Below, piece after piece: positions 1-16,131 of a stretch of DNA of 16,131 nucleotides. The notes beneath the pieces are model-generated. The model searched no databases and was not told where the DNA came from. It saw only the letters and a list, made by a program, of their open reading frames with translations. The stretch is taken from contig NW_001915187.1 in NCBI RefSeq assembly GCF_000208925.1, positions 1-16,131 on the forward strand, written 5' to 3'. Position numbers and translations under genes: made by a program. This DNA comes from Entamoeba histolytica HM-1:IMSS. Its lineage: Eukaryota > Evosea > Mastigamoebida > Endamoebidae. Every line of letters begins with the position of its first letter. The first letter of the stretch is position 1.

Positions 1-1386
1 AGAAATTGCAATATAAATATAATATTTATGAATAAAATGAACATGTAAGATATAAATTATGAAAATTCAAGAGAATAGAATGATGAAAGTAATGATAATT
101 AGTATTTGTAATAAGAATAAGAAGATTAATTAATAAAGAAATAAGAAGATTAATAGAAGTGTTTTGAATCAAAATACCATATGAAATAATTGAGACGGAT
201 ATTGTTAACAAAAATATGAAAGAATTAATGAAATAATGTTATAATCATTTTGATGAATATAAGAATCTATATAGAATAGAAGAAATAATCTATTTGATAT
301 TAAAATAATAGATGTAATAGCAGTTAAATATCATATAGAAGATGTTTGTTTTGAAACATAATAATTAATATATTTTATTGATAATAAATAAAAGTTTTAT
401 TTCATTTTTAATTTTATTATTAATATTTATATAAAACAATTTTAAATTAATAATTAATTCTGATAGATGAATAATAAACTAAATATGTTTAGTATAAACT
501 AATATATGAATCGAATAAAATATTATAAATAATATTAATATTTCTATAGAATAATTGAATAAATAATTTATATGAAAAATAAGAAATAAATAAGAAGAGT
601 TATAAATTAAAATATTTATTTAAAAAATAAACATAGAATTTATTTTATAAAAAGAATTAAATATTAATATTTATTAAAATATTTATTTTATTTGTTAATA
701 TAAAATAATGAATGAAAAGAATATTTAAATATATTTTTATTTTATTTGTAAATTGTTACATTATTATATTATTTACATAGATAAAATATTAAATATTATT
801 AATTCATTAAATTATTTATAAAATTATAAAGAATTAATAAAATTATATTTATTTATGATTACTATTATTATTATTATTATTATTTATTGAATAAATTATT
901 TTTGATTTTCTTCTTTTGAAATATATAATTTATTTTATTTATTCAATTTATTTAATATTATGAAATTTATTCTATTTGTTTATTTATTTACTTCTTTATA
1001 ATATCTATTTATTTGATTAAATTTATCATGTTTCTTTTTGCTTTTTTAATATATTTTAATTTATGAAATATTTATTTTCTTATTTTTATTTATTTCTTTT
1101 TTATAATTATTTTGTATGGTACAATTTATTATTAGTGTGTTAATTTGTATATTGTATATTATTATTTCTTCATTCATTTGGTTATTTATCATTTATTTAT
1201 ATTTTGTTTTATACCATATTCTGTTTGTAGAAAATATAATTCTTTAATTCTTTGACTATTTCATATCTAATCATTTATTCACGTTTCTCGTGTTTATAAC
1301 TTATTATTCTCTCTAATATTTAAAATCACATTATTTTTATTATAATTTATTATAATTATTTATTTTTAATCAATCTAAAAGAATGA

Positions 1387-1404
1387 AATTAGTATATACT
1401 AATT
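1387..1404. repeat. 18-bp palindrome in ITR-L
   Basis: The perfect palindrome AATTAGTATATACTAATT is flanked by near-symmetric AATGA and TCATT, giving a longer imperfect stem. A related TTAGTATAAACTAA lies at about 489-502, beside an ACTAAA/TTTAGT inverted pair at 477-492. It may be a protein-binding or hairpin site. Chance palindromes are common in AT-rich DNA, so its function is uncertain. Confidence 0.6.
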
Positions 1405-1714
1405 CATTTGTGTAAATATTAGAATGGAGATTATATTTTGATTCATAACAACATAAGAATGTATAGATTTTTCATTTGAAATAAAGATAATAAATGAAAA
1501 GAAATAGAAAATGGAAATAAAAATAAAAAGAATGAATAATAAATAAAAAAGAAGAAATAGAATATGATTAAAAGAATAATAGAAGAATAATATAAATAAT
1601 AAGAAAATAGAAGAAAATAAGACATAATGATAATAAACAAGAATTAGATATAATAAAAGAAATTAAACGATATAAAGAAGAATATAAATAACAGAAATAT
1701 GTCAGAAGAAGAAA

Positions 1715-1768
1715 AAATATTAATAATTTGTGATTTTCTCCGGAGAAAATCACAAATTATTAATATTT
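1715..1768. repeat. 54-bp perfect palindrome in ITR-L, candidate origin or cruciform
   Basis: Two 27-nt arms are perfect reverse complements with no loop. The centre lies between 1741 and 1742 in the core TTCTCCGGAGAA, the only GC-rich spot in a long AT-only stretch. Such a uniform perfect palindrome can extrude as a cruciform and is a plausible Rep recognition or resolution site. It does not show the standard CRESS nonanucleotide in a loop, so the origin role is inferred. Confidence 0.85.
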
Positions 1769-1792
1769 CAAAATGAAATGATTATGAATGTT

Positions 1793-1905
1793 CTAAAAAT
1801 AGAATGATGACGTGTAAATACGTAATAATTATTTATAGAAATAGATTTGACGTGGTAACAACTCAAATGTATTTATAGAAATAGAATTTACTCATCAACA
1901 CGTAA
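1793..1905. promoter_or_regulatory. ACGT/TATAGAAATAGA repeat array in ITR-L
   Basis: A 15-nt direct repeat, ATTTATAGAAATAGA, occurs at 1831-1845 and 1871-1885, 40 bp apart. ACGT cores are interspersed: TGATGACGTG (1805), TACGTA (1819), GACGTGG (1849) and CACGTAATC (1899). Repeats beside a strong palindrome resemble the iterons bound by rolling-circle Rep proteins, and TGACGT is also a bZIP (CRE-like) site. Either reading is inference. Confidence 0.55.
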
Positions 1906-1967
1906 TCAAATATAAATAGAATTATGGAATAGATAACACAAAAATCTAAAAAATTAAAGATAGAAAT

Positions 1968-1987
1968 GTCAGCTGACAACGCTGACC
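1968..1987. promoter_or_regulatory. GTCAGC inverted motif cluster
   Basis: A GTCAGCTGAC palindrome is followed after three bases by GCTGACC, giving three GTCAGC half-sites in 20 bp. The right ITR has the same cluster at 14203-14221 with a slightly different spacer. A further GGTCAGCGA lies at 13904-13912 in the unique region. This is possibly a binding site of a viral or host factor near the ITR promoter. Confidence 0.4.
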
Positions 1988-2046
1988 AAATTTATAGTAA
2001 AATTATAATAAAAATATTATAAAATATAATAAAAATATATAGTCAG

Positions 2047-2087
2047 TATAAATATATATATATATATTTTGAACCTCAAAAGTCAGT
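2047..2087 (+). promoter_or_regulatory. Inward TATA/TCAGT promoter at ITR-L edge
   Basis: TATAAA and a (TA)n run at 2047-2068 are followed by TCAGT at 2083-2087, whose A lies about 31 bp from the centre of the run. This matches the arthropod TATA plus initiator layout. It points rightward into 2088-4049, where only leftward genes lie, so a transcript would be antisense to the spike genes or non-coding. The final T of TCAGT is just outside the shared repeat; the right ITR reads TCAGA there. Confidence 0.4.
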
Positions 2088-2159
2088 GTTGAATTATTTA
2101 TGAAACACTCTCTGACTAAAGTGTGTTGAATAACACAATTTATTGATTTCTTTTGCTCG

Positions 2160-2253
2160 ATTTAATGTTATCAGTTATCAGGAAATCGTTACATGCACTT
2201 CCCTTTGGTTGTTATTTCACTCTTATTTTCCTGTACAACTGACAACATTAAAT
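2160..2253. repeat. Imperfect inverted repeat between ITR-L and the first gene
   Basis: The left arm, about 2160-2185 (TTTAATGTTATCAGTT then CAGGAAA), pairs with the right arm, about 2227-2253 (TTTCCTG then AACTGACAACATTAAA), with few mismatches and a loop of about 41 nt. It lies just downstream of the leftward spike gene, whose stop is at 2269. Possible roles are a 3' processing structure or a replication hairpin. A smaller perfect stem, TGTGTT-GAAT-AACACA, lies at 2122-2137, and a leftward AATAAA polyadenylation signal overlaps 2139-2144. No gene is seen in 2087-2268. Confidence 0.55.
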
Positions 2254-2268
2254 TATTCACAAAAGAAT

Positions 2269-3333
2269 TTAATTACCTAGTGCTTTCCAGCGGTTCGAGA
2301 AAAGTGAAGTTGGCAAATATGAATATGATGGTGTATCTTTTCTGAATGCTATTTTCATTGAATCTTCTTGTTGTGCCATTTCATCATCAGAGTTCGATGC
2401 TATAAAGAATATACTGCCCCAATTTATTGCATTGGCGAAGAGTATTGGAACGAGTAATGCCTTTTCCCCCGCAGCTAAGAAGATTTCTCCTTCATATATG
2501 AATCGGGGTTCTAATTTCCCATTATTTGCGAATTTTAACGAAAGGCAGCTTTTAGAACTTAGTAGAGTTATATAAAACGGTCTAAGCGCGTGACTAGATT
2601 TTACGAGTGTCGTTTCTTCGGAGTAAGGAATGTTGAGTTCCGACCATGTAACCTGTTCTGTGTTTGTAGGAAGGTTTATTATGTTGGTAGGATAGTTAAT
2701 TGGAAAGGCTTCGGTTCCACTCGAATAATATAGCTTATTGAATGTATGTTTTTCTTCTGGGATGTTCGTGGTTATGGTAATTTTTGAAAAACCATAGTAG
2801 TTTGAATCCGGAGTGTAAGTTGCTGTTGCGTTTTCCTGTATTGTTATGTCTTTTGCTTGTAGAGCAGGTTGTACGTTTATTGATGCATTGACGGCATTTA
2901 AACCGTAATGATTTTCGTCTGGTTTAAGAAGGTAATTTCCGTTATTCGTAAATGTGTGTGCTAGTGTTTGAAGAGGAGGGTTGACATCCGTTGTTATCGA
3001 AACTTGACCGAAGGTATGATTCGGTTCTGGTAAGAAGGTTTGTTGGCCGTTCTGGTTTATCAATTTTACTAACATATCTTCTGTTTTAGGAGGTACATCG
3101 ACTTTGAGGTTTACTTCTTTTATTCCGTCGTAATCAGTTGGTGTTTGAATTGTATAATTTCCATTCTGTGTTATGTAAGAAGATAGAGTTATAGTATTTA
3201 TTGGTTGTTTTGTTTCCAAATCTGGTATATTTGTTAGAATAATTTTTTCTTTTTCGGAAATTATTTCAAGTGAATCCTGGTTCGATTTATTGCATGTTTT
3301 TATGAGGTTTGTTAGGTTTATCTCTGTTTCCAT
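2269..3333 (-). CDS. Spike/fibre-like protein with four beta-repeats, 354 aa
   Basis: I do not recognise a named family. Residues 1-45 form a domain shared with the next gene (METEINLTNLIKTC versus MNTEVSIKDLINTC). Residues 53-81, 90-118, 127-154 and 163-191 are four degenerate repeats of about 30 residues with the pattern NGNYxxxPxxxYxGxxxVxxxVxVxP. This pattern is common in phage tail-fibre-like and surface proteins. Residues 215-354 form a C-terminal domain containing TWSELNIP and ending in LFSNRWKAL, both echoed in the paralogue. There is no signal peptide or membrane helix. A role as a virion spike or host-attachment protein is inferred from the repeats and from its place beside the capsid genes. 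It starts at an ATG 49 nt after the upstream gene's stop; TTTTAATTGA lies 37 nt before the ATG. Confidence 0.85.
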   Translation of the reverse strand: METEINLTNLIKTCNKSNQDSLEIISEKEKIILTNIPDLETKQPINTITLSSYITQNGNYTIQTPTDYDGIKEVNLKVDVPPKTEDMLVKLINQNGQQTFLPEPNHTFGQVSITTDVNPPLQTLAHTFTNNGNYLLKPDENHYGLNAVNASINVQPALQAKDITIQENATATYTPDSNYYGFSKITITTNIPEEKHTFNKLYYSSGTEAFPINYPTNIINLPTNTEQVTWSELNIPYSEETTLVKSSHALRPFYITLLSSKSCLSLKFANNGKLEPRFIYEGEIFLAAGEKALLVPILFANAINWGSIFFIASNSDDEMAQQEDSMKIAFRKDTPSYSYLPTSLFSNRWKALGN

Positions 3334-3382
3334 TGGTTATAATGTTTATTGAGATGAATTGAATAACTAGTCAATTAAAAGT

Positions 3383-4009
3383 TTAAACTTCCTTGTTGAA
3401 GTATTTATTCCAAATCTCATCAAAAAGACCGGGAGAAACTGCTGATATTCCTCCATTAATTTCCAAGTCTATTTCAATGAATTGTTGGTTTGAGTTTTGT
3501 TCTCTTCCCCCACTTTCTAATGTTAATGTTAGACGTTTAGTTGAATCATTATAATTTAATCTATAAGGAAATATTATTATGTTTTTTTGAGGTGTGATAT
3601 TGAACCATTGATTTTCGTATGCACCGAAATGGATTGTGTGTGTTTTCAAGTCGAAGCTCATTACTACATAGAGTATTCCACTTCCTTCTGTAATCATTAT
3701 TTCATGTTCATCGTCATCTTCCATTGTTAGAAATGTCACAGTTGAAGTTGGAATGTTTAGAGATTGCCATGTTTGAGTGTTACCCTTTTCAGATGTTATG
3801 ATTATATGATTAGTTGGTTGTTCATTTATTTGTATTTGTTTTTCGTCATTGTCTGGATTAATTCCTGTCAGTTTTATTCTGTTTATTACAAGTAAGCTTG
3901 GTATATCTTTTAGAGTTATTGTTTCTTTTTCCAATACAATGTCGTATTGATTCATTTGGAGGATATTACAGGTGTTTATTAGGTCTTTTATACTCACTTC
4001 TGTGTTCAT
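3383..4009 (-). CDS. Short spike-like paralogue without repeats, 208 aa
   Basis: This is a paralogue of the 354-aa neighbour that lacks the repeat section. The N-terminal 45 residues align (xxTExxxxxLIxTCN, then an acidic/hydrophobic stretch ending in IPxL). The motif TWQSLNIP (80-87) matches TWSELNIP, and the C-terminal SPGLFDEIWNKYF matches LPTSLFSNRWKAL. The predicted character is beta-rich, soluble, without signal peptide or membrane segment. The pair may share a capsid-anchoring N-terminus and a common distal fold, with the longer one carrying an inserted stalk (inference). It is divergent from capsid-like gene 1, with only 40 bp between the two start codons. Confidence 0.85.
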   Translation of the reverse strand: MNTEVSIKDLINTCNILQMNQYDIVLEKETITLKDIPSLLVINRIKLTGINPDNDEKQIQINEQPTNHIIITSEKGNTQTWQSLNIPTSTVTFLTMEDDDEHEIMITEGSGILYVVMSFDLKTHTIHFGAYENQWFNITPQKNIIIFPYRLNYNDSTKRLTLTLESGGREQNSNQQFIEIDLEINGGISAVSPGLFDEIWNKYFNKEV

Positions 4010-4049
4010 TGATATTCTCAGTTTCTCTGGGATCTTGTAATATCAGTTT
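3989..4049 (+). promoter_or_regulatory. Divergent spike/capsid promoter
   Basis: The two start codons (leftward 4009, rightward 4050) are separated by 40 bp. For the rightward gene, TATA at 3989 lies 31 bp before the A of TCAGTTT (4018-4024), a textbook arthropod core promoter giving a leader of about 30 nt; its TATA lies inside the spike gene. Inverted TGATATT (4010-4016) and AATATCA (4039-4045) sit next to the two ATGs. A second TCAGT lies at 4043-4047. Confidence 0.55.
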
Positions 4050-5537
4050 ATGTCTTTTTCATCTAATTCAACATTTAAACATAAGAAATATGGACCAGCT
4101 AAAGTTAATGTCGATATTGCAAAACGTAATCAGAGACAAGAGCTTACTGTTACTATTCCGGTGTCAACTGAATGGAGAGGTGCAATGAGACATATCGGGG
4201 GAAGAGATTACAGTGATGTCCACACCATTTCGAGTTTATCCATGCTTGCTGGTTCCAGGCAATTTATAGAAATGTGTGATTGTTTTGATCAATTTAAAAT
4301 TATGGATGTTCATATTTGTGGCGATGTTAGTAAAGGAGTATCCACATTAATGAATTTTAGAGTGTGTTTTATAAAGAGTATTTCACTTCAGGTGAGTATT
4401 GATAATGGTTCAAATTGGACAGATATCGATGCTGCTGAATTATTAGTTGATGCGAATCATGTGTATTTTGAAGAAGGTCAGGCTGGCGAATTTATTGAAT
4501 ATTATAATGGGAATTTTTATATCGGAAAACCGGAACATGGTGCTGGTTATCCGATAATTGCCACGCAAGTTCTCAGTTTTCCAACTGTTTATGGTTTAGC
4601 TAGTCGTCGTACTGTTCCTCCCGGATTTTTTACTCCAAGTCCTACAGGAGTTTCATATGTTGAGCCTAGTTTTGATGTTCTTTCTTCTTATTCTTCTTTT
4701 ATATATCAAAGTAAATTACCTGGTGCCAGTTTACATCTATCACTTGATGTTGCTGGAGTATCTTCGAGTGAAAAAATGATGACAACCCCCACTATGATGG
4801 CGGGAAAGTTATATAAATTTATTCCAGAGAATCAAAATGGACGTTTTTATCCTTTTATTATGTATGGTGCCAAAGCCACTCTTCCCACTGGTGCTGGTGA
4901 TATTACTGATGCTCTTTCTTTTATTGATGATGGTGGTATTTCTTGGACTGGTAATGTGGGAATACCTCAAGAAGAAGAGGAAATTATTTTGGATAATGCC
5001 AATGTTGATTTACAGGATGTTATTCGTGATAATGTGAAAATAAAAGTTCGTGTTGGTCGTGGTATTGTAGTTGGAGGATTTCAGGGATCGGATGCCGCGG
5101 ATGTTGAAGCTGCATATAAACAAGAACTTGCTAATCATACCACCGTTGAGACTGATGGTTCGTATATTATGAAAATTATGGGGTATATTACAGTGAGATT
5201 TAAGCAATTGCGTTCATCTCCTCTTGAGATTGTCGAAGCATATAATTTTGTTCGTTGTCAGTCATCTTGGAGAAATCCAACGACTGGCGAGGTTGCATCT
5301 CATGACAGTGTAATTTCGTTAAATGGTTTAGGACAATTTGTTCAAGATGGTGTTAGCGGGTTTGTTATTGAACGTGGTGATGGAGAGTCATGGACGGATG
5401 CATTGAAACGATATGGCTTTGAAAACATTCCAGTTGATACTTTCTTGACTCTTGGTTCTCTTGCTGAAGGAACGGGTATTACTTCTTATGCATGTAATAT
5501 GGTTAAAAAGGGAGTTAAGAATGAATTGGTCCATTAG
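4050..5537 (+). CDS. Capsid-like protein 1 (putative jelly-roll), 495 aa
   Basis: This is a probable structural shell protein. It is beta-strand-rich with a basic N-terminus (FKHKKYGPAKVNVDIAKRNQRQ). It has the CRESS-capsid-like motif FIEMCDCFDQFKIMDV (72-87), which corresponds to FHNYMGMYDQFKLNAV in capsid-like 2. Near residues 372-388 is a strand pattern, IMKIMGYITVRFKQLR, like the last jelly-roll strand of CRESS capsids. Residues 253-280 (KLYKFIPENQNGRFYPFIMYG) also fit a shell protein. About 100 residues follow the presumed jelly roll, ending with NELVH and a stop. A different frame is open directly across and beyond this stop, so the true C-terminus may be longer. The family assignment rests on motif patterns, not on a search. 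The start is the first ATG after the TATA/TCAGT promoter. Confidence 0.75.
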   Translation: MSFSSNSTFKHKKYGPAKVNVDIAKRNQRQELTVTIPVSTEWRGAMRHIGGRDYSDVHTISSLSMLAGSRQFIEMCDCFDQFKIMDVHICGDVSKGVSTLMNFRVCFIKSISLQVSIDNGSNWTDIDAAELLVDANHVYFEEGQAGEFIEYYNGNFYIGKPEHGAGYPIIATQVLSFPTVYGLASRRTVPPGFFTPSPTGVSYVEPSFDVLSSYSSFIYQSKLPGASLHLSLDVAGVSSSEKMMTTPTMMAGKLYKFIPENQNGRFYPFIMYGAKATLPTGAGDITDALSFIDDGGISWTGNVGIPQEEEEIILDNANVDLQDVIRDNVKIKVRVGRGIVVGGFQGSDAADVEAAYKQELANHTTVETDGSYIMKIMGYITVRFKQLRSSPLEIVEAYNFVRCQSSWRNPTTGEVASHDSVISLNGLGQFVQDGVSGFVIERGDGESWTDALKRYGFENIPVDTFLTLGSLAEGTGITSYACNMVKKGVKNELVH

Positions 5538-5815: not shown

Positions 5816-6769
5816 ATGCAACGACGTGTTAGTAGACGTAATTATCCAAGAAGAGGTTATAAAAAACGTACAACTTTGAAACGACAAGCATTTGGTAATT
5901 TTGCAAGTGCTATGCAGCAACGAGATAGTACTAATGTAGTTATTAGTATGCAAGAGGATGTTTCTATTAATGTTCCAGTTGGTGCAAATGAAGGTACAAT
6001 GTTGAGGAATGTCACTGCTTTGATGACTTCTACACAATATTTTCATAATTATATGGGAATGTATGATCAATTCAAGTTAAATGCTGTCAGAGCATCCATG
6101 GAAATGACATTCATTGGAAATCAGTTGTTAAATAGTGCAACATTCCCTTCTATATGTACAGCATGGGATCGTAATGGTGTTAGAATTAATACTGCTGTTA
6201 TTAATAATACGAGATATTTCCAATTACCTGCTTATTCTTCTGTTTCTTCTTATTCTAGTGCAAATGAAAAGACATTGTATTATGGTAGTAGATGGGGAGT
6301 AGTGAGACAATTAGATGCAGCATCTATGATGGAAAAGTCTATGTATTTACCAACAACTAATACTAGAGATGTACTTAGTATGGATAACATGTATAGTGCA
6401 TGGAATCCTCAATTACTTATCGCTATAAAAACTCCTCAAGCTGTTAATGTTGCCAATGCTTGTACTCTTACTATTCATTGGCAATTTGATGTTACATTGA
6501 GAGGTTTGAGAAAAGTACTCGTTACTGATGAAAATTCATTTAAACCTTATGCTGGGTTTATTGGTTATGCTCGCAATAATAATGGACTTGTTGTACCTAG
6601 TAATATTCCTAATGCTCAACCTCCGTATATTTTAGTTGGAGCTATTGCTAATGGATTTGCTCCATCAATTAATCCTGAGACTGTTTATGATAATGCCAAT
6701 GATGCATATTCTAACGGTGGGTTGGTAATACCAAATGATGGATTGCCAGAACATAATGTTAATCTCTAA
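5816..6769 (+). CDS. Capsid-like protein 2 (CRESS-type), 317 aa
   Basis: This is a probable coat protein. The N-terminus is an Arg/Lys-rich arm (MQRRVSRRNYPRRGYKKR, then LKRQ), as in circovirus-type capsids, where it binds the ssDNA genome and serves as a nuclear localisation signal. A beta-rich body follows: MGMYDQFKLNAVRASMEMTFI (80-100) is the typical strand C/D pattern, and WNPQLLIAIKT (196-206) with LTIHWQFDVTLRG (218-230) resembles the final strands of the jelly roll. The C-terminal 80 residues are Asn/Pro-rich and probably loop-like. The frame is open eight codons further upstream from a TTG, but ATG 5816 directly precedes the basic arm and is preferred. It is 33 nt after the preceding frame and 29 nt before the next gene. 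Confidence 0.85.
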   Translation: MQRRVSRRNYPRRGYKKRTTLKRQAFGNFASAMQQRDSTNVVISMQEDVSINVPVGANEGTMLRNVTALMTSTQYFHNYMGMYDQFKLNAVRASMEMTFIGNQLLNSATFPSICTAWDRNGVRINTAVINNTRYFQLPAYSSVSSYSSANEKTLYYGSRWGVVRQLDAASMMEKSMYLPTTNTRDVLSMDNMYSAWNPQLLIAIKTPQAVNVANACTLTIHWQFDVTLRGLRKVLVTDENSFKPYAGFIGYARNNNGLVVPSNIPNAQPPYILVGAIANGFAPSINPETVYDNANDAYSNGGLVIPNDGLPEHNVNL

Positions 6770-6798
6770 TTGATTATTGAACTTTATTTGGTTATTTG

Positions 6799-9273
6799 AT
6801 GTGGAGACGAAGGAGAAGACAATATAGTTATAACAAACGAAATAACCGTTATTATAATAGTGCTGGAAAGTATGTTTCCAGACAATATGATAAACAACCC
6901 ATTGATAATGAACAACAGTTTTATCAATTTGGTGGAAGACCTTATAATCCACCACTTCCAGATGAATCTCTTCAAAATATAGTTAGTAGGGAATTGGATA
7001 AACGATTAGGTGAAGAAGGTAGTTTTTATAAAGAAAACAATAAACGACAGAAAAAGATTGATGATGATAATAAAAGTCTGTATAGAGCTATTCTACGTGC
7101 TCAACAGGATAATCTTAAAAATGTTCATCATATTGAACGTTTAGAGTCTGCAATTAAAAAATATAAACAAAATGCTGAACGATTTGTTACAGTTGAAGAT
7201 TTAGTTCGTGAAAATAGAGAAATGATAAATGAAAATGTGAATAAGATTAATGAATTAAAAATACAATTTGGTGATTTTATTCCTCGTAATGTTCGTACTC
7301 AAATAAAGGATCTTACAGAACAAAATTCAGTATTGAAACGTCGTGTATCTCAAATTGAAAGGAATAATGGGATATTTGTTACTCGTGCAGAGTTAAATGC
7401 TTTCAGAGATTTCTATGAACCTCTAATTGAAAAACAGGGTTCTAGATTACAAAATATCGAAGAACGAGTTAATGTCATGAGAGGATTAATTGATAAATAT
7501 CCTGCCTTTGAGAATGAATTACAGAATCTATCTAATGCTTATCGGAATATGGGAATGGTATTTTCTAAACAATATGATGATTTAAATTCTCAATTTAGAC
7601 ATTTGAATACAATAAGTCCAGAAAATTTAAATGCTGTTAGAGCAGATTTGGAATTATATAAAAACCACCTTCAAAAAGAAATACAATTACTTTATAAGAC
7701 TAAATTGGATGTTAATGATGCTGCTAAGTGGTTTGATCAGACATTACCTAATACATATAATCGAAATGATGTAAATGCTTTATTAGGACAAATTAATGAT
7801 TATGTAAAGAAACAAGAAGGAATTATTAAGGATATTGATTCAAGACTTGCTGAACAGAACCGATTTTCATTGAAACAACTCGATGCTGTTACAGATAAGG
7901 TCAATTTATATACAGAACGTCTTGATAAATTAGAAAAGAAATCAGAAGAATGGAAAAATGTTTTTGATGTTGTTAATAGATTACCTGAACATATGAAAAT
8001 ACCATTAAATGATTTACTTAAAGATTTATTGGAAGAAAGAGAACCCGCTAATTTCACTAGAAGAATGAGAATACTTGAGAGTGAAGTGAAAGCTCTTAAT
8101 TCATCAATACATAAAATTGGTAGTGGTAAAACAGAAGAAATTACTCGTGTAATAAGTTTGGTGAATAGTATACAAAATGATATGAATTCATATAAAAAGA
8201 AGGGACAAATAATAAATGCAGGAGAAGAACAATTTTATAGTGATGATCCGGATATGAGACAGAGTAAAAAGGCATTTGAAAATACACGCCAATTATTAAT
8301 TTCTCGTTTTAAAGATGTTAATAAGTATATAAAAGATGATGAGGTTCGGGGTGCACAATATAATGATGTAATAAGTAATGTTAATGCAATTATGAAACAA
8401 TTTGAAAATATTGCTCAGTCTTTTAATGCTGAATATGTTGTTCCTGTTAATGATATGCAAAATTTTCATGAAAGTATGATGATGGTTTTGAGTGGTATTA
8501 TGGATGATAAGTCTAATGTTGATGAAATTCGTTATAAATTGGATGTTGCTTCTCATGATTTTGATAAATTACGAGGTTCTTGGAATGATAATAGAAATGC
8601 GGGTGCTAAGATTATTGCAAATAAGTTAGCTGAACGAAATGGTATAAATATTAATGATTTTGTTGAATATGCTCAGAGTTTTGCTGTACGTGGTGGTGCA
8701 GATTCTTATGTTTCTGAGAGTGTAATACAGCCTAGAAAAAGAATGATAAGAGATGATATTTCTTCTGATTCAAATTCTGGATTTGACAAACGCGGAGATG
8801 AAACAGTTACACTGAGAGAAGGAAATCGTGGATATGAAATAATGGGTAGACATAAAATTGAACCTAAATATGATGCTATTCCCATTGCTTCGGATTATAG
8901 ACAGAAGACAAATGATTTGATGCGTTCATCTTATAATGAATATGATTACGAGAAGTGGTACAAAGAAGCTAGAGGAAGAATAAAGGAACGAGTAAAGAAA
9001 TATTATGATAATCCAGAAAATGAAAGAGAAGTTGTCGATATTAATGGACATATTACTGAATCTATTCCAAGGGGCGTGTATGACATGATTGAGGCGGATG
9101 AAATTGGACGATATGAAAAGCGCGTGAGTGCTTCGAAAAGAAACAATTTAATATTGAAACGTACCATGGAACGCATTAATAAACATGCATGGGAAGAAGC
9201 GGCGAAGAAGGATAAAACGGTGAAACCGAGAAAAATAACAAAAATTTCAATGGTAAAAGATAAAAAGAAGTAA
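6799..9273 (+). CDS. Arg-rich, long coiled-coil protein, 824 aa
   Basis: The family is not recognised. The N-terminus is strikingly basic (MWRRRRRQYSYNKRNNR), recalling the arm of capsid-like 2, and is followed by a Tyr/Pro/Gly linker with PYNPPLP (about residues 50-56). From about residue 60 to 600 the sequence is almost continuously charged and helical with heptad-like spacing of Leu/Ile/Val: a long coiled coil. The last 200 residues are charged, with a basic C-terminus. There is no signal peptide or membrane segment. The position after the capsid genes suggests a virion or assembly protein that binds nucleic acid through its arm: an internal core, scaffold or tape-measure-like protein (inference). 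The track-style start at TTG 6796 is one codon upstream; ATG 6799 is chosen. Confidence 0.8.
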   Translation: MWRRRRRQYSYNKRNNRYYNSAGKYVSRQYDKQPIDNEQQFYQFGGRPYNPPLPDESLQNIVSRELDKRLGEEGSFYKENNKRQKKIDDDNKSLYRAILRAQQDNLKNVHHIERLESAIKKYKQNAERFVTVEDLVRENREMINENVNKINELKIQFGDFIPRNVRTQIKDLTEQNSVLKRRVSQIERNNGIFVTRAELNAFRDFYEPLIEKQGSRLQNIEERVNVMRGLIDKYPAFENELQNLSNAYRNMGMVFSKQYDDLNSQFRHLNTISPENLNAVRADLELYKNHLQKEIQLLYKTKLDVNDAAKWFDQTLPNTYNRNDVNALLGQINDYVKKQEGIIKDIDSRLAEQNRFSLKQLDAVTDKVNLYTERLDKLEKKSEEWKNVFDVVNRLPEHMKIPLNDLLKDLLEEREPANFTRRMRILESEVKALNSSIHKIGSGKTEEITRVISLVNSIQNDMNSYKKKGQIINAGEEQFYSDDPDMRQSKKAFENTRQLLISRFKDVNKYIKDDEVRGAQYNDVISNVNAIMKQFENIAQSFNAEYVVPVNDMQNFHESMMMVLSGIMDDKSNVDEIRYKLDVASHDFDKLRGSWNDNRNAGAKIIANKLAERNGININDFVEYAQSFAVRGGADSYVSESVIQPRKRMIRDDISSDSNSGFDKRGDETVTLREGNRGYEIMGRHKIEPKYDAIPIASDYRQKTNDLMRSSYNEYDYEKWYKEARGRIKERVKKYYDNPENEREVVDINGHITESIPRGVYDMIEADEIGRYEKRVSASKRNNLILKRTMERINKHAWEEAAKKDKTVKPRKITKISMVKDKKK

Positions 9274-9325
9274 ATTAATTTAATTCTTTTTAGTCATAAA
9301 TGATGTCTGGATCATTTCCATCTCT

Positions 9326-10972
9326 TCAGAAAGGTGGCTGTTCCCTGGGAAAGTTTTCTTCTTTGTATTCTTCGTCTGTATAATCTTCTTCCATTTCTTC
9401 GTTGTAATCATCAGCTGAAGAGTCCATGTATCTCGCGAAATAACTATTTCTCTGCTTTTCATAGGAGGACATGGTTTCTCTTTCGAAGTCGCCAAAATCT
9501 TCCCTTGACAAGCCGAGTGGATTATCTGTTTGGTATTCTTCTAGGTCTTTGTTCCACTCTTCTAACATACTCGTGTTGTCTTCTTGGGATTCATTTAGAA
9601 TTTTTTTCATCTTCTTATCTTTCTTTGCTTCTTTTATTTTTTCCGTCAGGCCTTCTAGGAATTCTTCATCGTAACCGAGTGACTCCATTAAATTAGTCAC
9701 TCTTTTGTAGAAAGAGAGGTGCTCCGCCGATTTATTATCAATTAAATCTTGTTCTTCTGGCATATCTTTGATGGTCTCATATTTTTCTTGTAAATCTTCC
9801 ATTGCATCGTAGTTTTCTTCCCGCTTTTCCATATCTTCTGAATCTTTTTCAGATTCTTCGGGATCTTTATAAAGCTTTTTATCTATGAACACTGTCAGTG
9901 AATTTCTTTTCCACCAGTTATAGCCTCCGTTGTATTTCATCAATTCTACTACTCCTTCATACTCCCTCTGATTTAATAGGTGGATACAAGGTCTGGCGGT
10001 AACAATTGCTTTTGAGTATTTAATATTGACCATTGTTTTTTTATCTATAGTAGAAGTAACCGCCTTTATTAATCTTATTAAATTTTTATCGTAATTTATA
10101 TCGTCAAAGAGAATGAATTTATAATTTTGTTCGTCGTCGTACGCGTCGAACAGAGAATCTCCTCTTAACATGAAGGTATTATATTTTAAGAAGATTTCTT
10201 GTATGGCAAATTCTGTTTTGCCTGTTTTGGTAGGTCCTACAATAAATAAATTTCCCATCCGATATTTATTCCCCGCGGCACATTTCAACCATTTGCGGAT
10301 TGTTTGTACTTCCGGCATTTCTTCTCTCCAGGGGAATAAATCGGTTCTCGTGTAATGTTCGATATCTAGACGTCTCGCGTTCTTACGCAACCACCTCGCC
10401 TTTATTTTACCTTCCTGCTGAATATACTTTTCAGCGTTAATATCTAGAAGGGTTTTTTCCAATTCACTGTAATCCTGGTAAGAATCGAGTTCTGATAAAG
10501 CGTTGATCCACGTCTGTTTCAAGTCCTCCTTTGTGGATGGATCCCCCTTACACATCCCAGCACCTTTCTTCGTAATATAACGTATAATCGCCGAGATATC
10601 ACCAGTGCGTGAGGTGTAAGAATTTACCCGTGAGTACCAAAAAGTCTGCTTCGTTCCGTCCGAGTGATTAATTAACGGTCTCGCTTTAAATGAGCGCGGT
10701 CTCTTGGTGACTATTAGCAGGTGCTGGTGTGGTTTGGGATTTACTTCGTCTATTTCAGTGGGTGAAATATGAGCATACTGAACGTTATTTGTTGCACCGG
10801 CTAGACGATCCACCACTTCTTTGAACTGTATTTGATTGGAAATTTCATCGCCCCAGAGCGTTAAATACATGAATCTGGACGTGAAATGGAGAGCCTTGTT
10901 GTTTGCTAGAGCATCTTTTAAGTGAATCATGTCCATTTTATTGGGTTCAGAGTGGAATTCTTCTTTAGACAT
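9326..10972 (-). CDS. rep: Replication protein: HUH endonuclease + SF3 helicase, 548 aa
   Basis: Rep-type initiator. HUH nuclease domain: motif I-like SRFMYLTLWG (32-41), motif II PHQHLLIV with His82 and His84 (metal ligands), and motif III RYITKKG with Tyr132 as the nicking tyrosine and Lys135/136. SF3 helicase: Walker A GPTKTGKT (246-253), Walker B KFILFDDI (285-292), and motif C-like KAIVTARP (321-328), where CRESS Reps usually have a conserved Asn. The motif order is that of CRESS-DNA virus Reps, which nick the origin and unwind DNA. Unusually, residues 370-548 form a long, highly acidic tail rich in Glu/Asp, making the protein much longer than typical CRESS Reps (about 300-400 aa). It lies convergent with the coiled-coil gene (52-nt gap) and divergent from the 172-aa gene. 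Confidence 0.95.
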   Translation of the reverse strand: MSKEEFHSEPNKMDMIHLKDALANNKALHFTSRFMYLTLWGDEISNQIQFKEVVDRLAGATNNVQYAHISPTEIDEVNPKPHQHLLIVTKRPRSFKARPLINHSDGTKQTFWYSRVNSYTSRTGDISAIIRYITKKGAGMCKGDPSTKEDLKQTWINALSELDSYQDYSELEKTLLDINAEKYIQQEGKIKARWLRKNARRLDIEHYTRTDLFPWREEMPEVQTIRKWLKCAAGNKYRMGNLFIVGPTKTGKTEFAIQEIFLKYNTFMLRGDSLFDAYDDEQNYKFILFDDINYDKNLIRLIKAVTSTIDKKTMVNIKYSKAIVTARPCIHLLNQREYEGVVELMKYNGGYNWWKRNSLTVFIDKKLYKDPEESEKDSEDMEKREENYDAMEDLQEKYETIKDMPEEQDLIDNKSAEHLSFYKRVTNLMESLGYDEEFLEGLTEKIKEAKKDKKMKKILNESQEDNTSMLEEWNKDLEEYQTDNPLGLSREDFGDFERETMSSYEKQRNSYFARYMDSSADDYNEEMEEDYTDEEYKEENFPREQPPF

Positions 10973-11107: not shown

Positions 11108-11626
11108 ATGACAAACATGAACAGGCCAAGAGATGATATTTACATGGACGTCGCCGCTATGGATATATTAGATGTTTACACTGAGGCGCAGTCTGAGCCG
11201 AACGTTAACGCTTTCCTCAAGAAGTTCTATTACACCATGAAAGAGCCGTCATATATTGACTGGAAGATTAATAACTCCGATAAAGTTAAAAGTGATGAAG
11301 ACAGGCGAGATTTAATAAGACAAAAACTTGAAAGTATTAGAAGATGTGAAAGAATATCTAGATATTTGGATGAAAATAATATAGGACTTAATTCATTTAA
11401 TGCATGGAATAAAAAGTTTGCAAAGAAGTGTAATAAAAAGACCGTTGACCAGAGTACTATTCCAGACTGGGTTCGAAAGTCGTCTCGAAAACAGGCCGAA
11501 GAAGTTGATGTTGATGTTATTCGCGTTGAAGAAAATGAAAACGAATCTAAACGCGCTTTACTTAGACCGTTAAAATCTAAAGATGAGGAAAAGAAGCCTA
11601 AGAAGGTTGAGACTAAAGATAATTAA
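11108..11626 (+). CDS. Charged small protein, 172 aa, unknown function
   Basis: Not recognised. Residues 1-50 are acidic/mixed (RDDIYMDVAAMDILDVYTEA). The middle is helical and charged, with a run of Arg/Lys/Asp/Glu (DKVKSDEDRRDLIRQKLESI). Residues 97-130 are basic with two Cys. The C-terminus is strongly charged and Lys-rich (KSKDEEKKPKKVETKDN), probably disordered. There is no membrane segment or signal peptide. It is divergent from rep through a 135-bp region, so co-regulation with replication is plausible. Alternative starts are Met4 (11117) and Met13 (11144); a TATA-like run just before 11108 favours considering Met13. An AATAAA lies at 11744-11749, about 120 nt after the stop. Confidence 0.75.
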   Translation: MTNMNRPRDDIYMDVAAMDILDVYTEAQSEPNVNAFLKKFYYTMKEPSYIDWKINNSDKVKSDEDRRDLIRQKLESIRRCERISRYLDENNIGLNSFNAWNKKFAKKCNKKTVDQSTIPDWVRKSSRKQAEEVDVDVIRVEENENESKRALLRPLKSKDEEKKPKKVETKDN

Positions 11627-11815: not shown

Positions 11816-12121
11816 TCACTTAAAGTGTATTGCATAATCTCTGTTATAAAGAAATCTAAATTGACTTAAAATTTCTATCAATTTTTCATTTTCTATTATT
11901 AACACTTGGGCGTCTGCTATTAAATAATCTAAATAGCCAAATAACGTATCATCATAGTTAAATTCTTTAATAAACGAAACTTGTCTTGTCCATAAAGCGA
12001 TTGCATGAATGAGGCTATCTCCTTCGGGAGATAAATTGGTTGTTGATAAATGTTTAATAATGATGGATAATTCCTTTGTCAAATCATTCAAAGCATTTTT
12101 AATGTAAGCGGAGGAGTTCAT
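11816..12121 (-). CDS. Small helical protein, 101 aa, unknown function
   Basis: Not recognised. It appears all-alpha, with long amphipathic stretches (YIKNALNDLTKELSIIIKHL; then SLIHAIALWTRQVSFI; then the acidic-hydrophobic DTLFGYLDYLIADAQVLII), ending in RFLYNRDYAIHFK. There is no signal peptide; hydrophobic segments are interrupted by charges, so a membrane helix is unlikely. It starts at a single clear ATG and is divergent from the 12282 gene. The neighbouring 109-aa protein has a similar size and helical layout, but I cannot show homology by eye. It is probably an accessory or early protein, judged from the ACGT-rich shared promoter. Confidence 0.7.
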   Translation of the reverse strand: MNSSAYIKNALNDLTKELSIIIKHLSTTNLSPEGDSLIHAIALWTRQVSFIKEFNYDDTLFGYLDYLIADAQVLIIENEKLIEILSQFRFLYNRDYAIHFK

Positions 12122-12281
12122 GGCGACGATGTTAATGTTTAATTTTCAGTTCTTTAAAAACGTTTGATTACGTATTGATTAGTAATATTTATTGTCTGTT
12201 TGATGACGTGTACTGCCTGTTCACGGTGAGTTATGTCTGTTTATGATAAATTTAATTGAAGTTTATCTTGTAATTTATTCA
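12122..12281. promoter_or_regulatory. Divergent promoter with ITR-like ACGT elements
   Basis: The gap between the 101-aa and 109-aa genes contains three ACGT cores (12160, 12170, 12206). TGATGACGTGTA at 12201-12212 is identical over 12 bases to the ITR array at 1805-1816 (and to the mirror at 14375-14386). GATTACGTATTGATT (12166-12180) also resembles ITR sequence. TTTAATTGAA (12251-12260) lies 21 nt before ATG 12282. Confidence 0.5.
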
Positions 12282-12611
12282 ATGAGTAATAATCCTGAAG
12301 ACAAGATTGACTACTATCCGTTTGACGACTTAAAAGTTGAATTGTTGCTTGATTTTTATAATGATATGAATGACTTACATGATCTGTGTGATGATATGGT
12401 TAATTTGTATAAAAGGGAGGAGTGCTGTACTTTAGGAAGTGAAAGATATTCTGTTCTCATTGAAGATGAAATCTTTTTGATAGAGGATATCGCTTCTTTA
12501 GCTTGTAAATTCTTGGAGCAACATGGTTCTGTTATTGGGGCTTTTAGACGATGTAGGGAAAAAAGAGAAAACAGAAAACATGAACAGTGTAAGCCGAAGA
12601 AGAATAATTAA
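12282..12611 (+). CDS. Small acidic helical protein, 109 aa, unknown function
   Basis: Not recognised. It starts MSNNPEDKIDYYPFDD, followed by acidic amphipathic helices (VELLLDFYNDMNDLHDLCDDMVNLY; SVLIEDEIFLIEDIASLACKFL) and a basic tail (FRRCREKRENRKHEQCKPKKNN). It has five Cys but no clear zinc-binding spacing. The frame opens 13 codons earlier at ATG 12243, but that stretch contains the TTTAATTGAA element found before other genes. I therefore prefer Met at 12282; with the upstream ATG it would be 122 aa. It converges on the 51-aa membrane protein gene. Confidence 0.7.
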   Translation: MSNNPEDKIDYYPFDDLKVELLLDFYNDMNDLHDLCDDMVNLYKREECCTLGSERYSVLIEDEIFLIEDIASLACKFLEQHGSVIGAFRRCREKRENRKHEQCKPKKNN

Positions 12612-12634
12612 ATTTTATTTTGGCTTATTTTCGT

Positions 12635-12790
12635 TTAATCCAGGAATTTTAAAAATAATTCAGCTATTATTATGCACATAATTAGTACGAGTAATATAAT
12701 TGAAGCCGCAACGGAGTAACATACTCTTAATAGTAGATTTGGTCTTTTGTTCTCTAATTTATTAATAAACGAATTTCCTGTTTCTTCCAT
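12635..12790 (-). CDS. Single-pass membrane miniprotein, 51 aa
   Basis: A short ATG-started frame in an otherwise unexplained gap. A hydrophilic N-terminus (MEETGNSFINKLENKRPN) is followed by an uninterrupted hydrophobic segment at residues 23-43 (VCYSVAASIILLVLIMCIIIA), then ELFLKFLD and a stop. This is the layout of a small membrane protein; the basic residues before the helix (K15, R16, R22) predict an N-terminus on the cytosolic side. It lies 32 nt downstream of the dNK stop on the same strand. CTAATTGAA (12830-12822, reverse strand) lies 31 nt before the ATG, and an AATAAA signal (12619-12614) follows the stop closely. Function is unknown; a viroporin-like or virus-exit role would be speculation. 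Confidence 0.6.
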   Translation of the reverse strand: MEETGNSFINKLENKRPNLLLRVCYSVAASIILLVLIMCIIIAELFLKFLD

Positions 12791-12822
12791 GATATAAACA
12801 AAGAATGAGAATAATTAGATAT

Positions 12823-13200
12823 TCAATTAGAAGTTGACTTGCTTGTTTGGTGCTTGATAAAGAAATCCGTATACGTAGTATTGAGTGGTATCAACTGTTC
12901 CTTGAATTTATATCTGGCGGTTTCTGATAGTCTGTTTCTTTTGAGAAGTCTTTTAAATTGTATATCAATATTACTACAATAAAGTAGAAAATAATAGTCT
13001 GTGTCAAATTCACCCAATAAAAGAGAACATATATAATCACCCAACACCAATTGTTCGACTTCGATAATATCCAAATATGAAGTATCTAATTTTACCAGCG
13101 TAACGGCGCTCTCTGAGACATTTGGAATTTGATATCTTTTACATAAATATTCTGTTTGTAATTTCAGACTTTCTCTTTGTGCATTTGTTAACGTTTTTCG
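12823..13200 (-). CDS. Deoxynucleoside kinase, C-terminal part (frame-shifted)
   Basis: This continues the kinase in the -1 frame, open from just after a TAA at 13203-13201 to the TGA at 12823-12825. It contains helical sequence and then the LID-like motif KRLLKRNRLSE, the Arg-rich lid that closes over the phosphates in the dNK/thymidine kinase family. It lacks a usable ATG at its beginning, and a TTG at 13074 would remove the helix before the lid. Together with the upstream part it covers about 247 codons, the normal size of dNKs, with a one-base discrepancy. I read it as the second half of one gene rather than a separate gene. Confidence 0.7.
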   Translation of the reverse strand, partial: RKTLTNAQRESLKLQTEYLCKRYQIPNVSESAVTLVKLDTSYLDIIEVEQLVLGDYICSLLLGEFDTDYYFLLYCSNIDIQFKRLLKRNRLSETARYKFKEQLIPLNTTYTDFFIKHQTSKSTSN

Positions 13201-13565
13201 TTATGACAAAATATTTCTAACGATTCTATGGGGTGCCTATCCCAAATAACGAAATCGGCTTCCTCATAATCTAAAGAATTCAATTGGTCTTCATAACACT
13301 GTAAAATATACTTCTGGAATTCAAAATTTGTAATGATATTATTAAATAATTTCTTGAGCATTTCTTCACCTGAATGATTATAATCTATATATTCCCTGAT
13401 GAACACGGCCTCCGTATAATTACTAACGTAGTTGTAGATTGCACTTCCCAGTGTCGACTTTCCGGTAGCAATACTTCCTCCGAGAAAGATGTGTTGTTTT
13501 CTGAATGGATAAGGATAAGGTTGTTGAGTGGGCACTTTATTAAGTTGAGGGGAGTTACTGGTCAT
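13188..13565 (-). CDS. Deoxynucleoside kinase, N-terminal part
   Basis: The enzyme phosphorylates deoxynucleosides to supply dNTPs for viral DNA synthesis. After a Pro-rich N-terminus come the P-loop GGSIATGKST (about residues 29-38), the catalytic-Glu region REYIDY (57-62), a substrate-binding helix with FQKYILQCYEDQ (about 83-94) and DRHPIES (109-115), the DRH/ERS motif. The DRHPI wording resembles herpesvirus-type thymidine kinases. The frame stops at 13188 just after an A5 run (CGAAAAACG), and the remainder of the family fold lies in the next frame. The frame opens at TTG 13577, but the first ATG is at 13565. This is a viral or virus-acquired kinase; substrate preference cannot be told. 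Confidence 0.85.
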   Translation of the reverse strand: MTSNSPQLNKVPTQQPYPYPFRKQHIFLGGSIATGKSTLGSAIYNYVSNYTEAVFIREYIDYNHSGEEMLKKLFNNIITNFEFQKYILQCYEDQLNSLDYEEADFVIWDRHPIESLEIFCHNEKR

Positions 13566-13695
13566 GTTAGCAGCCAATTGATTAAAGTTTTTAGTATCTC
13601 GACTTTGTTGTTTTTATTTGTTTGACAGGTTGTTACACGTATATATTACGTTATTATATCGTTCTCTGTTTTAATATTTTTATTATTTAATATTT

Positions 13696-13879
13696 TTATT
13701 TGCCATTTAATTTCTCGATGCTCTTGTAATACTTCACCTTCTCTTGTTGTTTTAATCGTTTTTTACGTTTCTCCGCTTCTTTATGTTTCTATGACGCGTT
13801 TTCTTCTCATTTCTGCACCTTTCTTTCACCCTAATTCATCACCATGTGAAATTTTGAACGTTAAATTCAACCCTGCCAT
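13696..13879 (-). pseudogene. Possible broken small basic ORF
   Basis: Leftward from ATG 13879 the frame reads 17 codons (MAGLNLTFKISHGDELG) to a TGA, remains open after it to a TAA near 13783 (including MRRKRVIET), and then a different frame gives 30 codons to a TAA at 13696 with a strongly basic helical sequence (KEAEKRKKRLKQQEKVKYY). No single frame joins them. It begins 60 nt after the predicted start site at 13939. It may be a decayed gene, a spliced or frameshifted one, or chance. Confidence is low. Confidence 0.3.
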
Positions 13880-13890
13880 GTATACATTAC

Positions 13891-13926
13891 TATATATACC
13901 GGGGTCAGCGAACTGATAATTTCAGT
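13891..13926 (+). promoter_or_regulatory. Rightward TATATATA/TCAGT promoter facing ITR-R
   Basis: TATATATA (13891-13898) is followed by TCAGTC (13922-13927), 33 bp from TATA to the initiator A. GGTCAGCGA lies between them at 13904-13912. The transcript would run into the right ITR, where no gene is seen, so it could be a non-coding or readthrough RNA, or this may be a non-functional match. Confidence 0.35.
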
Positions 13927-13938
13927 CGGTTCTTGCAC

Positions 13939-13974
13939 TGACTATTTTGTTATAAATATCTTTCCCCTTTTATA
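13939..13974 (-). promoter_or_regulatory. Leftward TATAAAAGG/TCAGT promoter upstream of dNK
   Basis: On the reverse strand, TATAAAAGG (13974-13966) is followed 35 nt later by the A of GTCAGTGC (initiator at 13941-13937). This is the strongest TATA box in the window. It would transcribe leftward through the broken ORF to the dNK (ATG 13565) with a leader of about 370 nt. Confidence 0.5.
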
Positions 13975-14283
13975 AAAATAGCTGAGTAAATAATAATTGA
14001 GTTTTGAATTGAGTTGAAATTGAGGTATAATATTTATTTTGATTCCATAAATTGTGTTATTAATCCCAATATGGTCAGTAAGTGTCTCAATATTATTCCC
14101 CTTCTGACTTTTGAGGTTCAAAATATATATATATATATTTATACTGACTATATATTTTTATTATATTTTATAATATTTTTATTATAATTTTACTATAAAT
14201 TTGGTCAGCGAGTCAGCTGACATTTCTATCTTTAATTTTTTAGATTTTTGTGTTATCTATTCCATAATTCTATTTATATTTGA

Positions 14284-14398
14284 TTACGTTTCAATACGTC
14301 ATCATTCTATTTCTATAAATACATTTGAGTTGTTACCACGTCAAATCTATTTCTATAAATAATTATTACGTATTTACACGTCATCATTCTATTTTTAG
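14284..14398. promoter_or_regulatory. ACGT/TATAGAAATAGA repeat array in ITR-R
   Basis: This is the mirror of the left array, but with one extra unit-like element: ACGTCATCATTCT occurs twice (about 14296 and 14378), whereas the left copy has an unrelated sequence at the matching spot. This is the largest difference between the two ITRs, so copy number or sequence of the repeats varies between ends. Confidence 0.55.
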
Positions 14399-14422
14399 AA
14401 CATTCATAATCATTTCATTTTG

Positions 14423-14476
14423 AAATATTAATAATTTGTGATTTTCTCCGGAGAAAATCACAAATTATTAATATTT
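14423..14476. repeat. 54-bp perfect palindrome in ITR-R
   Basis: This is the second copy of the palindrome, with its centre between 14449 and 14450 and the identical TTCTCCGGAGAA core. Being self-complementary, it reads the same in both ITRs. It lies about 320 bp outside the inner ITR border, as on the left. Confidence 0.85.
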
Positions 14477-14786
14477 TTTCTTCTTCTGACATATTTCTGT
14501 TATTTATATTCTTCTTTATATCGTTTAATTTCTTTTATTATATCTAATTCTTGTTTATTATCATTATGTCTTATTTTCTTCTATTTTCTTATTATTTATA
14601 TTATTCTTCTATTATTCTTTTAATCATATTCTATTTCTTCTTTTTTATTTATTATTCATTCTTTTTATTTTTATTTCCATTTTCTATTTCTTTTCATTTA
14701 TTATCTTTATTTCAAATGAAAAATCTATACATTCTTATGTTGTTATGAATCAAAATATAATCTCCATTCTAATATTTACACAAATG

Positions 14787-14804
14787 AATTAGTATATACT
14801 AATT
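14787..14804. repeat. 18-bp palindrome in ITR-R
   Basis: This is the mirror copy of the AATTAGTATATACTAATT palindrome of the left ITR, at the symmetric position. Confidence 0.6.
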
Positions 14805-16131
14805 TCATTCTTTTAGATTGATTAAAAATAAATAATTATAATAAATTATAATAAAAATAATGTGATTTTAAATATTAGAGAGAATAATAAGTTATAAACA
14901 CGAGAAACGTGAATAAATGATTAGATATGAAATAGTCAAAGAATTAAAGAATTATATTTTCTACAAACAGAATATGGTATAAAACAAAATATAAATAAAT
15001 GATAAATAACCAAATGAATGAAGAAATAATAATATACAATATACAAATTAACACACTAATAATAAATTGTACCATACAAAATAATTATAAAAAAGAAATA
15101 AATAAAAATAAGAAAATAAATATTTCATAAATTAAAATATATTAAAAAAGCAAAAAGAAACATGATAAATTTAATCAAATAAATAGATATTATAAAGAAG
15201 TAAATAAATAAACAAATAGAATAAATTTCATAATATTAAATAAATTGAATAAATAAAATAAATTATATATTTCAAAAGAAGAAAATCAAAAATAATTTAT
15301 TCAATAAATAATAATAATAATAATAATAGTAATCATAAATAAATATAATTTTATTAATTCTTTATAATTTTATAAATAATTTAATGAATTAATAATATTT
15401 AATATTTTATCTATGTAAATAATATAATAATGTAACAATTTACAAATAAAATAAAAATATATTTAAATATTCTTTTCATTCATTATTTTATATTAACAAA
15501 TAAAATAAATATTTTAATAAATATTAATATTTAATTCTTTTTATAAAATAAATTCTATGTTTATTTTTTAAATAAATATTTTAATTTATAACTCTTCTTA
15601 TTTATTTCTTATTTTTCATATAAATTATTTATTCAATTATTCTATAGAAATATTAATATTATTTATAATATTTTATTCGATTCATATATTAGTTTATACT
15701 AAACATATTTAGTTTATTATTCATCTATCAGAATTAATTATTAATTTAAAATTGTTTTATATAAATATTAATAATAAAATTAAAAATGAAATAAAACTTT
15801 TATTTATTATCAATAAAATATATTAATTATTATGTTTCAAAACAAACATCTTCTATATGATATTTAACTGCTATTACATCTATTATTTTAATATCAAATA
15901 GATTATTTCTTCTATTCTATATAGATTCTTATATTCATCAAAATGATTATAACATTATTTCATTAATTCTTTCATATTTTTGTTAACAATATCCGTCTCA
16001 ATTATTTCATATGGGTATTTTGATTCAAAACACTTCTATTAATCTTCTTATTTCTTTATTAATTAATCTTCTTATTCTTATTACAAATACTAATTATCAT
16101 TACTTTCATCATTCTATTCTCTTGAATTTTC

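Follow-up and report, generated by a model that had tools for sequence, protein, structure and literature searches.

What kind of genetic element occupies the 16,131-nucleotide contig NW_001915187.1 of Entamoeba histolytica HM-1:IMSS? Analysed here over its whole length (the window; C72 among the 392 contigs of a 16.95-Mb assembly), it encodes a Rep of the circular Rep-encoding single-stranded DNA (CRESS) virus type, capsid-like proteins and a deoxynucleoside kinase (dNK) between kilobase-long inverted terminal repeats (ITRs). A preliminary description, made from the letters alone, had proposed an undescribed linear virus, possibly of arthropods. In our analysis the window quite probably belongs to a lineage of large linear Rep viruses, of ~16 kb or more, that resides in several copies in the E. 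histolytica genome. The gene set claimed at the outset, ten main open reading frames (ORFs), agrees with the list of open reading frames, and the central claim, a large linear element with long ITRs that joins a CRESS-type Rep, capsids and a nucleoside-kinase gene, is supported.

The Rep carries the motifs of an HUH endonuclease and a superfamily 3 (SF3) helicase. Residues T38, H82, H84, Y132, K135, G251-K252-T253 and D290-D291, which represent the HUH, YxxK, Walker A and Walker B motifs, are identical in all 13 aligned proteins; a six-member alignment with the more distant group B Reps described below retained the same residues, except that the YxxK lysine is an arginine in one protein. A tblastn search of the Rep against plasmids returned 16 weak records. 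The best E-values (to 3e-3) were haloarchaeal, mostly annotated as Orc1/Cdc6 and spanning 72-130 residues, and three phytoplasma records appeared at E 0.1-0.6, two of them annotated as replication-associated protein. The phytoplasma Reps were chosen over the haloarchaeal matches because of this annotation and their longer coverage. The two so annotated carry Gemini_AL1 (E 9.8e-22 and 2.5e-20), and the hhalign comparison with the Entamoeba Rep profile gave a probability of 98.5 and an E-value of 1.5e-15; the HxH, YxxK and both Walker motifs line up in it, and motif I falls outside the aligned part. The invariant motifs and this Gemini_AL1-bearing match confirm the HUH-SF3 Rep, which is of the geminivirus/circovirus type that characterizes Cressdnaviricota.

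Both capsid candidates, previously called CRESS-like, were read as single jelly rolls in structure models, the large one at low confidence, and profile comparison supports their paralogy (probability 92, E 6e-7). A single jelly-roll capsid protein related to those of CRESS viruses is a further Cressdnaviricota character found here. In the Foldseek search with the large capsid protein, parvovirus and densovirus capsids appeared as weak rows only, and no parvovirus Pfam model was among the window matches at E up to 1. PDB sequence searches with the Rep, the small capsid protein and both profiles gave nothing meaningful; two tropomyosin rows (E 2.2 and 3.9) were among their results. The proposed spike paralogy is confirmed by the first 63 residues of the 354-aa protein, which match the 208-aa protein of other copies at 38%, and both would act as spikes; a tblastn search of the 354-aa protein against phages found nothing. 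The Pfam scan of the ten ORFs, with shorter ORFs outside it, contained no DNA polymerase match, as had been noted, and in particular no protein-primed DNA polymerase B such as marks Bidnaviridae and Polinton-like viruses. Scans of the window for Rfam families and tRNA genes gave no match.

Long ITRs were also part of the initial proposal, and comparison of the two ends established near-identical arms of at least 2.09 kb. The blocks 177-1887/14304-16014 (1711 nt) and 61-178/16014-16131 (118 nt), separated by a one-base indel, are 100% complementary; of the inner blocks, 1900-1977/14212-14289 pairs at 100% and 1980-2146/14044-14210 at 89%. The GC content of 1-kb bins is 11-13% in the outer ITRs and 28-39% within 2001-13500. 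Inverted repeats flank five copies of the element in this genome, which argues for a linear genome. Since both window ends fall inside an ITR, and other copies extend further, the true termini lie outside the window. A region beyond the ITR common to C82, C88 and C56 was first read as possible host flank; C392, however, carries blocks of this region with their order unchanged, and the ITR may therefore extend further than observed.

The ITRs share a perfect palindrome of 54 bp, which every one of the ten arms of the five copies contains. Its centre is identical in nine arms, and the tenth carries two changes that pair together, a suggestive sign of conserved pairing. In 100 ITR shuffles that kept the single-base composition, the longest arms reached 13 bp, compared with the 27 bp observed. 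With up to three mismatches allowed, the 34-bp core of the palindrome occurs in the 16.95-Mb assembly at exactly these 10 places (N stretches being unable to match), and its reversed control at none. About 40 bp inward of the palindrome lie two or three 40-bp repeats, which start with TGACGTG in most arms. The third, variable unit (window 1888-1910 and 14280-14303) has two forms, neither bound to one side of the element, and this switching of sides fits exchange, or flipping, between arms. The loopless palindrome, together with the repeats, would form a putative Rep origin or terminal hairpin.

A DNA search with the large-capsid region located the five copies, C72 itself and, at 90-97% identity, C86, C49, C88 and C82, and a protein search with the Rep found 15 places in the genome, the five copies at 68-100% and ten places on nine contigs at 24-31%. 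In E. dispar, the Rep/capsid genes EDI_192730/EDI_192750 are both listed with a 15,699-bp contig and EDI_113650/EDI_113620 with one of 19,304 bp; this shared contig listing and the close locus tags suggest that Rep and capsid genes lie on the same contigs there. The recurrence of the gene set in five copies, together with these E. dispar pairs, places the plan beyond chance. It also leaves little room for a chimeric assembly that joined a small circular CRESS virus to another replicon, a view strongly disfavoured by the same junction in 5 of 5 copies and by the proximity of Rep and capsid genes implied by the E. dispar tags, even though the contig ends inside repeats and its halves differ sharply in between-copy divergence.

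This difference was examined in 500-nt bins. The four other copies match the window at 89-100% over 1501-9000, 77-83% over 9001-9500, 57-80% over 9501-14000, 81-92% over 14001-14500 and 97-100% beyond 14500; C49 ends early, which makes its outermost bins (62-68%) meaningless, and its 501-1000 bin stands at 89%. Synonymous and nonsynonymous divergence were computed pairwise among the copies with our own Nei-Gojobori script, the 824-aa gene being compared on its larger piece only where a contig half cut it. In the five virion-half genes, synonymous divergence (dS) is 0.03-0.40 and the ratio of nonsynonymous to synonymous divergence (dN/dS) does not exceed 0.18 in 46 of the 50 comparisons; the remaining four (0.30-0.43) all involve the frame-disrupted 208-aa spike gene of C49. 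These genes are under purifying selection. In the five early genes, the proportion of synonymous differences (pS) is 0.44-0.98, and dS is saturated in 10 of 10 Rep pairs. Because the gap lies at synonymous sites, differing protein constraint is unable to explain it. The early (Rep/dNK) modules have probably been exchanged between copies as whole cassettes: the divergence pattern is directly observed, and such an exchange, by whatever route and in whichever direction, would account for it.

The window copy is itself damaged, its large-capsid frame being disrupted near the end and its dNK stopping at 125 aa. Undisrupted versions of both genes are present among relatives, and sequencing error could be the source of the disrupted frames. 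The claim of a virus stands for the plan of Rep, capsids and ITRs; the contig itself is one partly damaged copy among five and as a free virus is at most a candidate.

An arthropod host is not borne out. Three other copies have Reps that match named E. histolytica proteins at 99.8% identity (two from HM-3:IMSS, one from HM-1:IMSS-B), which, with the close capsid matches, identifies Entamoeba as the host; a fourth Rep is 96% identical to an E. nuttalli P19 protein, and a 67% relative lies on a 131,106-bp contig. Among the matches listed, the large capsid protein reaches 99% with a protein encoded on a 214,769-bp E. histolytica contig, 91% with E. nuttalli, 85-90% with the three closest E. dispar proteins and 39-43% with other E. 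dispar proteins. For the large capsid at least 17 related proteins were listed; the Rep has 23, counting the window's own, and the small capsid 56. Two of these 56 bear E. dispar names; the other 54 are entries of ENA, Logan or JGI, of which 53 are 49-68% identical and one 29%, and by their sequences they point to relatives of the element elsewhere. Neither the Rep and the two capsids of the element nor a group-B-type Rep and the capsid of group B found a relative in IMG/VR, and one scan of prokaryote genome contigs likewise returned none.

Sequence comparison further shows, in the same genome, a second lineage that is only distantly related and shares the overall plan. In this group B, the contigs C123, C174, C48, C69 and C189 encode a 507-aa capsid protein with 37-38% identity to the small capsid, and capsid fragments occur on C239 and C142. 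Full 477-aa Rep frames are found on C123 and C189, partial or interrupted Rep matches on C48, C174 and C239, and weak spike matches and matches of the 122-aa type (see Table) on group B contigs; C142 has inverted repeats of ~0.9 kb, ~7 kb apart. A second jelly-roll candidate compared with the two capsid profiles gave weak probabilities of 25 and 45, by which dual capsids are suggested in group B as well. Among the distant Reps, that on C335 has a Rab-GAP gene of the host at a distance of ~4 kb and, at 6 kb, a gene whose product has thioredoxin-like domains, presumably of the kind found in UGGT, and the 522-kb contig C392 carries group B and group A ITR remnants side by side at 104500-108500, perhaps at a shared insertion site. 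These two loci indicate that some relatives and remnants are truly chromosomal.

Two further structures were observed in group B. One element (locus L037, 2180-2239) has a hairpin with 28-bp arms and a 4-nt loop ~0.4 kb inside its left inverted repeat, and the same scan found no such hairpin in 11 other loci. Another contig (locus L034) has a 716-nt inverted repeat, 46-761/1069-1784, 90% complementary with a 307-nt spacer.

Table. Positions of the genes and repeat structures along the window.
Feature	Position	Strand	Remarks
Left ITR	61..2146	+	2.09 kb or more; 11-12% GC in outer 1-kb bins
Perfect 54-bp palindrome, left ITR	1715..1768	.	27-bp arms, no loop
Two ~40-bp repeats starting TGACGTG, putatively iteron-like	1808..1887	+	adjoin left palindrome; variable third unit after
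Spike-like protein	2269..3333	-	354 aa; presumed function
Spike-like paralogue	3383..4009	-	208 aa; presumed function
Large capsid protein	4050..5537	+	495 aa here; frame disrupted near 3' end compared with 577-aa relative
Small capsid protein	5816..6769	+	317 aa; predicted single jelly roll, Arg-rich N-terminus
824-aa protein	6799..9273	+	Arg-rich N-terminus, probably coiled-coil
Rep, HUH endonuclease and SF3 helicase	9326..10972	-	548 aa; motifs, profile comparison
Early-cassette protein	11108..11626	+	172 aa, unassigned
Early-cassette protein	11816..12121	-	101 aa, unassigned
Early-cassette protein	12243..12611	+	122 aa, unassigned; relatives also in group B
dNK, truncated	13188..13565	-	125 aa; Pfam dNK E 1.6e-8
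Right ITR	14044..16131	-	inverted-repeat comparison with left arm
TGACGTG-type repeats, right ITR	14296..14394	-	2.4 units
Perfect 54-bp palindrome, right ITR	14423..14476	.	same sequence as left-ITR palindrome

The kinase gene of the preliminary description is confirmed by its Pfam match, in truncated form; the other four copies encode a product of 242-256 aa. In PHROGs, the one clear match was that of this dNK to a thymidylate-kinase family (E 1.1e-5). The genome contains 13 dNK-type places, four of which lie in the other viral copies. On C23, C146 and C118, neighbouring pairs of dNK-type frames (~360-380 and 222-225 aa) were observed, which could be host paralogues or belong to another mobile element. 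The large subunit of ribonucleotide reductase was not found in this genome, in a search positive for its control in 11 of 14 genomes and made on an assembly that may be incomplete; a virus-borne dNK would suit a salvage-dependent host.

NCBIfam matches were all below curated cut-offs, among them an IS66 accessory protein match of the 172-aa protein (E 8e-4). The 824-aa protein likewise has weak matches only, for example to Rad50-type models far under their cut-offs (E 4e-4, the best NCBIfam match), and is possibly a core or assembly protein. For the 122-aa protein, a Pfam match to the poxvirus tumour necrosis factor-receptor SECRET domain (22.2 bits, cut-off 20.5) was set aside as chance, since it is absent from the four counterparts in other copies and from the one group B relative scanned.

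From these data a life cycle can be proposed. The two paralogous proteins, predicted to be jelly rolls, would build the shell. The Rep would recognise the repeats beside the ITR palindrome, nick there and unwind the DNA, which host polymerases may then copy by strand displacement from both ends, so that no viral polymerase would be needed. The kinase would raise the supply of deoxynucleoside triphosphates in a host where no ribonucleotide reductase was found. Modules from the junction of the 824-aa and Rep genes to the right ITR would be exchanged between copies, and the window copy would at present be an inherited, partly damaged provirus or a linear resident element.

Several observations weigh against this reading, which is built on sequence and structure models. 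Host flank was neither seen on the window nor proven on the four other copies, and the contigs break inside the ITRs, so the integration of the five copies is a candidate only. In HMMER searches at E up to 1, the window Rep hit none of the Pfam families, and only 7 of the 13 aligned Reps weakly match REP_ORF2-G2P (best E 9.7e-4). The model of the large capsid protein has a pLDDT of 64.6 and a pTM of 0.45. The two nonanucleotides searched, TAATATTAC and TAGTATTAC, of the kind present in Cressdnaviricota stem-loop origins, were not found; the loopless palindrome is seen instead. The paired change in the palindrome is a single event, reached in 57 of 500 shuffles, and gene conversion keeping the virion halves alike would yield the same divergence pattern as cassette swapping.

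Among the alternatives, the one that survives best supposes purely fossil proviruses of an extinct lineage, without active replication today. It overlaps the reading as a resident viral lineage and differs from it on present activity only, so that their probabilities do not sum to one. Such fossils are favoured by the divergence of the ITR arms in four copies (1.3-5.1% over the longest aligned block), by the disrupted genes and by the remnants of both ITR kinds in C392. Nevertheless, the arms of the window are identical over ~1.9 kb save for the one-base indel and a short inner gap (read collapse in the assembly being another explanation), most genes are still open and constrained, and relatives occur in ENA, Logan and JGI entries, which leaves the fossil state a tenable but less probable view.

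Unlikely, but of wider consequence, is a living lineage resembling temperate phages, kept in the genome or in the nucleus, with a shared virion module and exchangeable Rep/dNK cassettes, whose particles would be the ~70-nm polyhedral virus reported in 1972. If this were true, the cassettes would set replication compatibility or immunity and let five copies coexist per cell. Slightly less probable again is an amoebal linear plasmid or transposon-like element which took up capsid genes and either has ceased to form virions or never did so. Such an element would fit the several copies within a genome, the long ITRs, the damaged genes of the window and the annotation of near-identical Reps in E. 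histolytica HM-3:IMSS and HM-1:IMSS-B, but the low dN/dS in 46 of 50 comparisons extends over the virion-half genes, spikes included, and the small capsid has more relatives, among those listed, than the Rep or the large capsid.

The reading as a resident viral lineage bears on earlier work on Entamoeba, cited here by PMC identifier from the parts of each publication consulted. For HM-1:IMSS, 14 Rep-like genes were listed (PMC3198968), compared with 15 Rep matches here; presuming gene-to-gene identity, many Rep-like genes long known in Entamoeba may belong to whole viruses. The polyhedral 70-nm E. histolytica virus of 1972 is listed without genome data in the consulted part of a 2023 review (PMC9973342). 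A link between it and the elements is conjecture, which would make the element a genome candidate for that virus. No large linear Entamoeba element was found in the published literature searched, preprints and most subscription journals lying outside the search, nor in the consulted parts of PMC10120064 and PMC4642659; within that scope, the element is undescribed, as first claimed.

Among known systems, the phytoplasma plasmids NC_010856 and NC_019290 encode a Rep homologous to the Entamoeba Rep over 316 columns, but they are small circular bacterial molecules (3.6 and 4.1 kb) with no capsid product named among the features listed. Parvoviridae and the archaeal Rudiviridae resemble the element in having an HUH Rep, a linear genome, terminal repeats and no DNA polymerase; however, parvovirus ITRs and genomes are shorter, and rudivirus hosts are unrelated. 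Lineavirales/Oomyviridae genomes are small. As described in part of PMC12451638, and set beside the element by description only, this order has a linear genome within Cressdnaviricota, so linear genomes are no longer foreign to the phylum, and its hosts are probably stramenopiles, unlike Entamoeba. Divergent paralogous capsid genes, two or three per genome, are also a feature of certain large CRESS viruses (PMC7000223), but these are circular and far smaller, the five named two-capsid genomes spanning 3.5-6.2 kb, with neither ITRs nor a dNK reported in the part consulted. Naryaviridae and Nenyaviridae (PMC7493932, in part) are likewise viruses of Entamoeba with Rep and Cap and with integrated copies in Entamoeba genomes; theirs are small circular genomes with Rep and Cap genes, whereas the element here is linear, ~16 kb long, and adds ITRs, two capsids, spikes and a dNK. 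Entamoeba Rep genes, linear cressdnaviruses and dual-capsid CRESS viruses were thus known before. Apparently new is the whole element, with its ITR palindrome, module exchange, second lineage and small-capsid relatives elsewhere, in which the CRESS-type plan of Rep and capsid would be extended to ~16 kb and include a paralogous pair of shell proteins, a metabolic gene and long terminal repeats.

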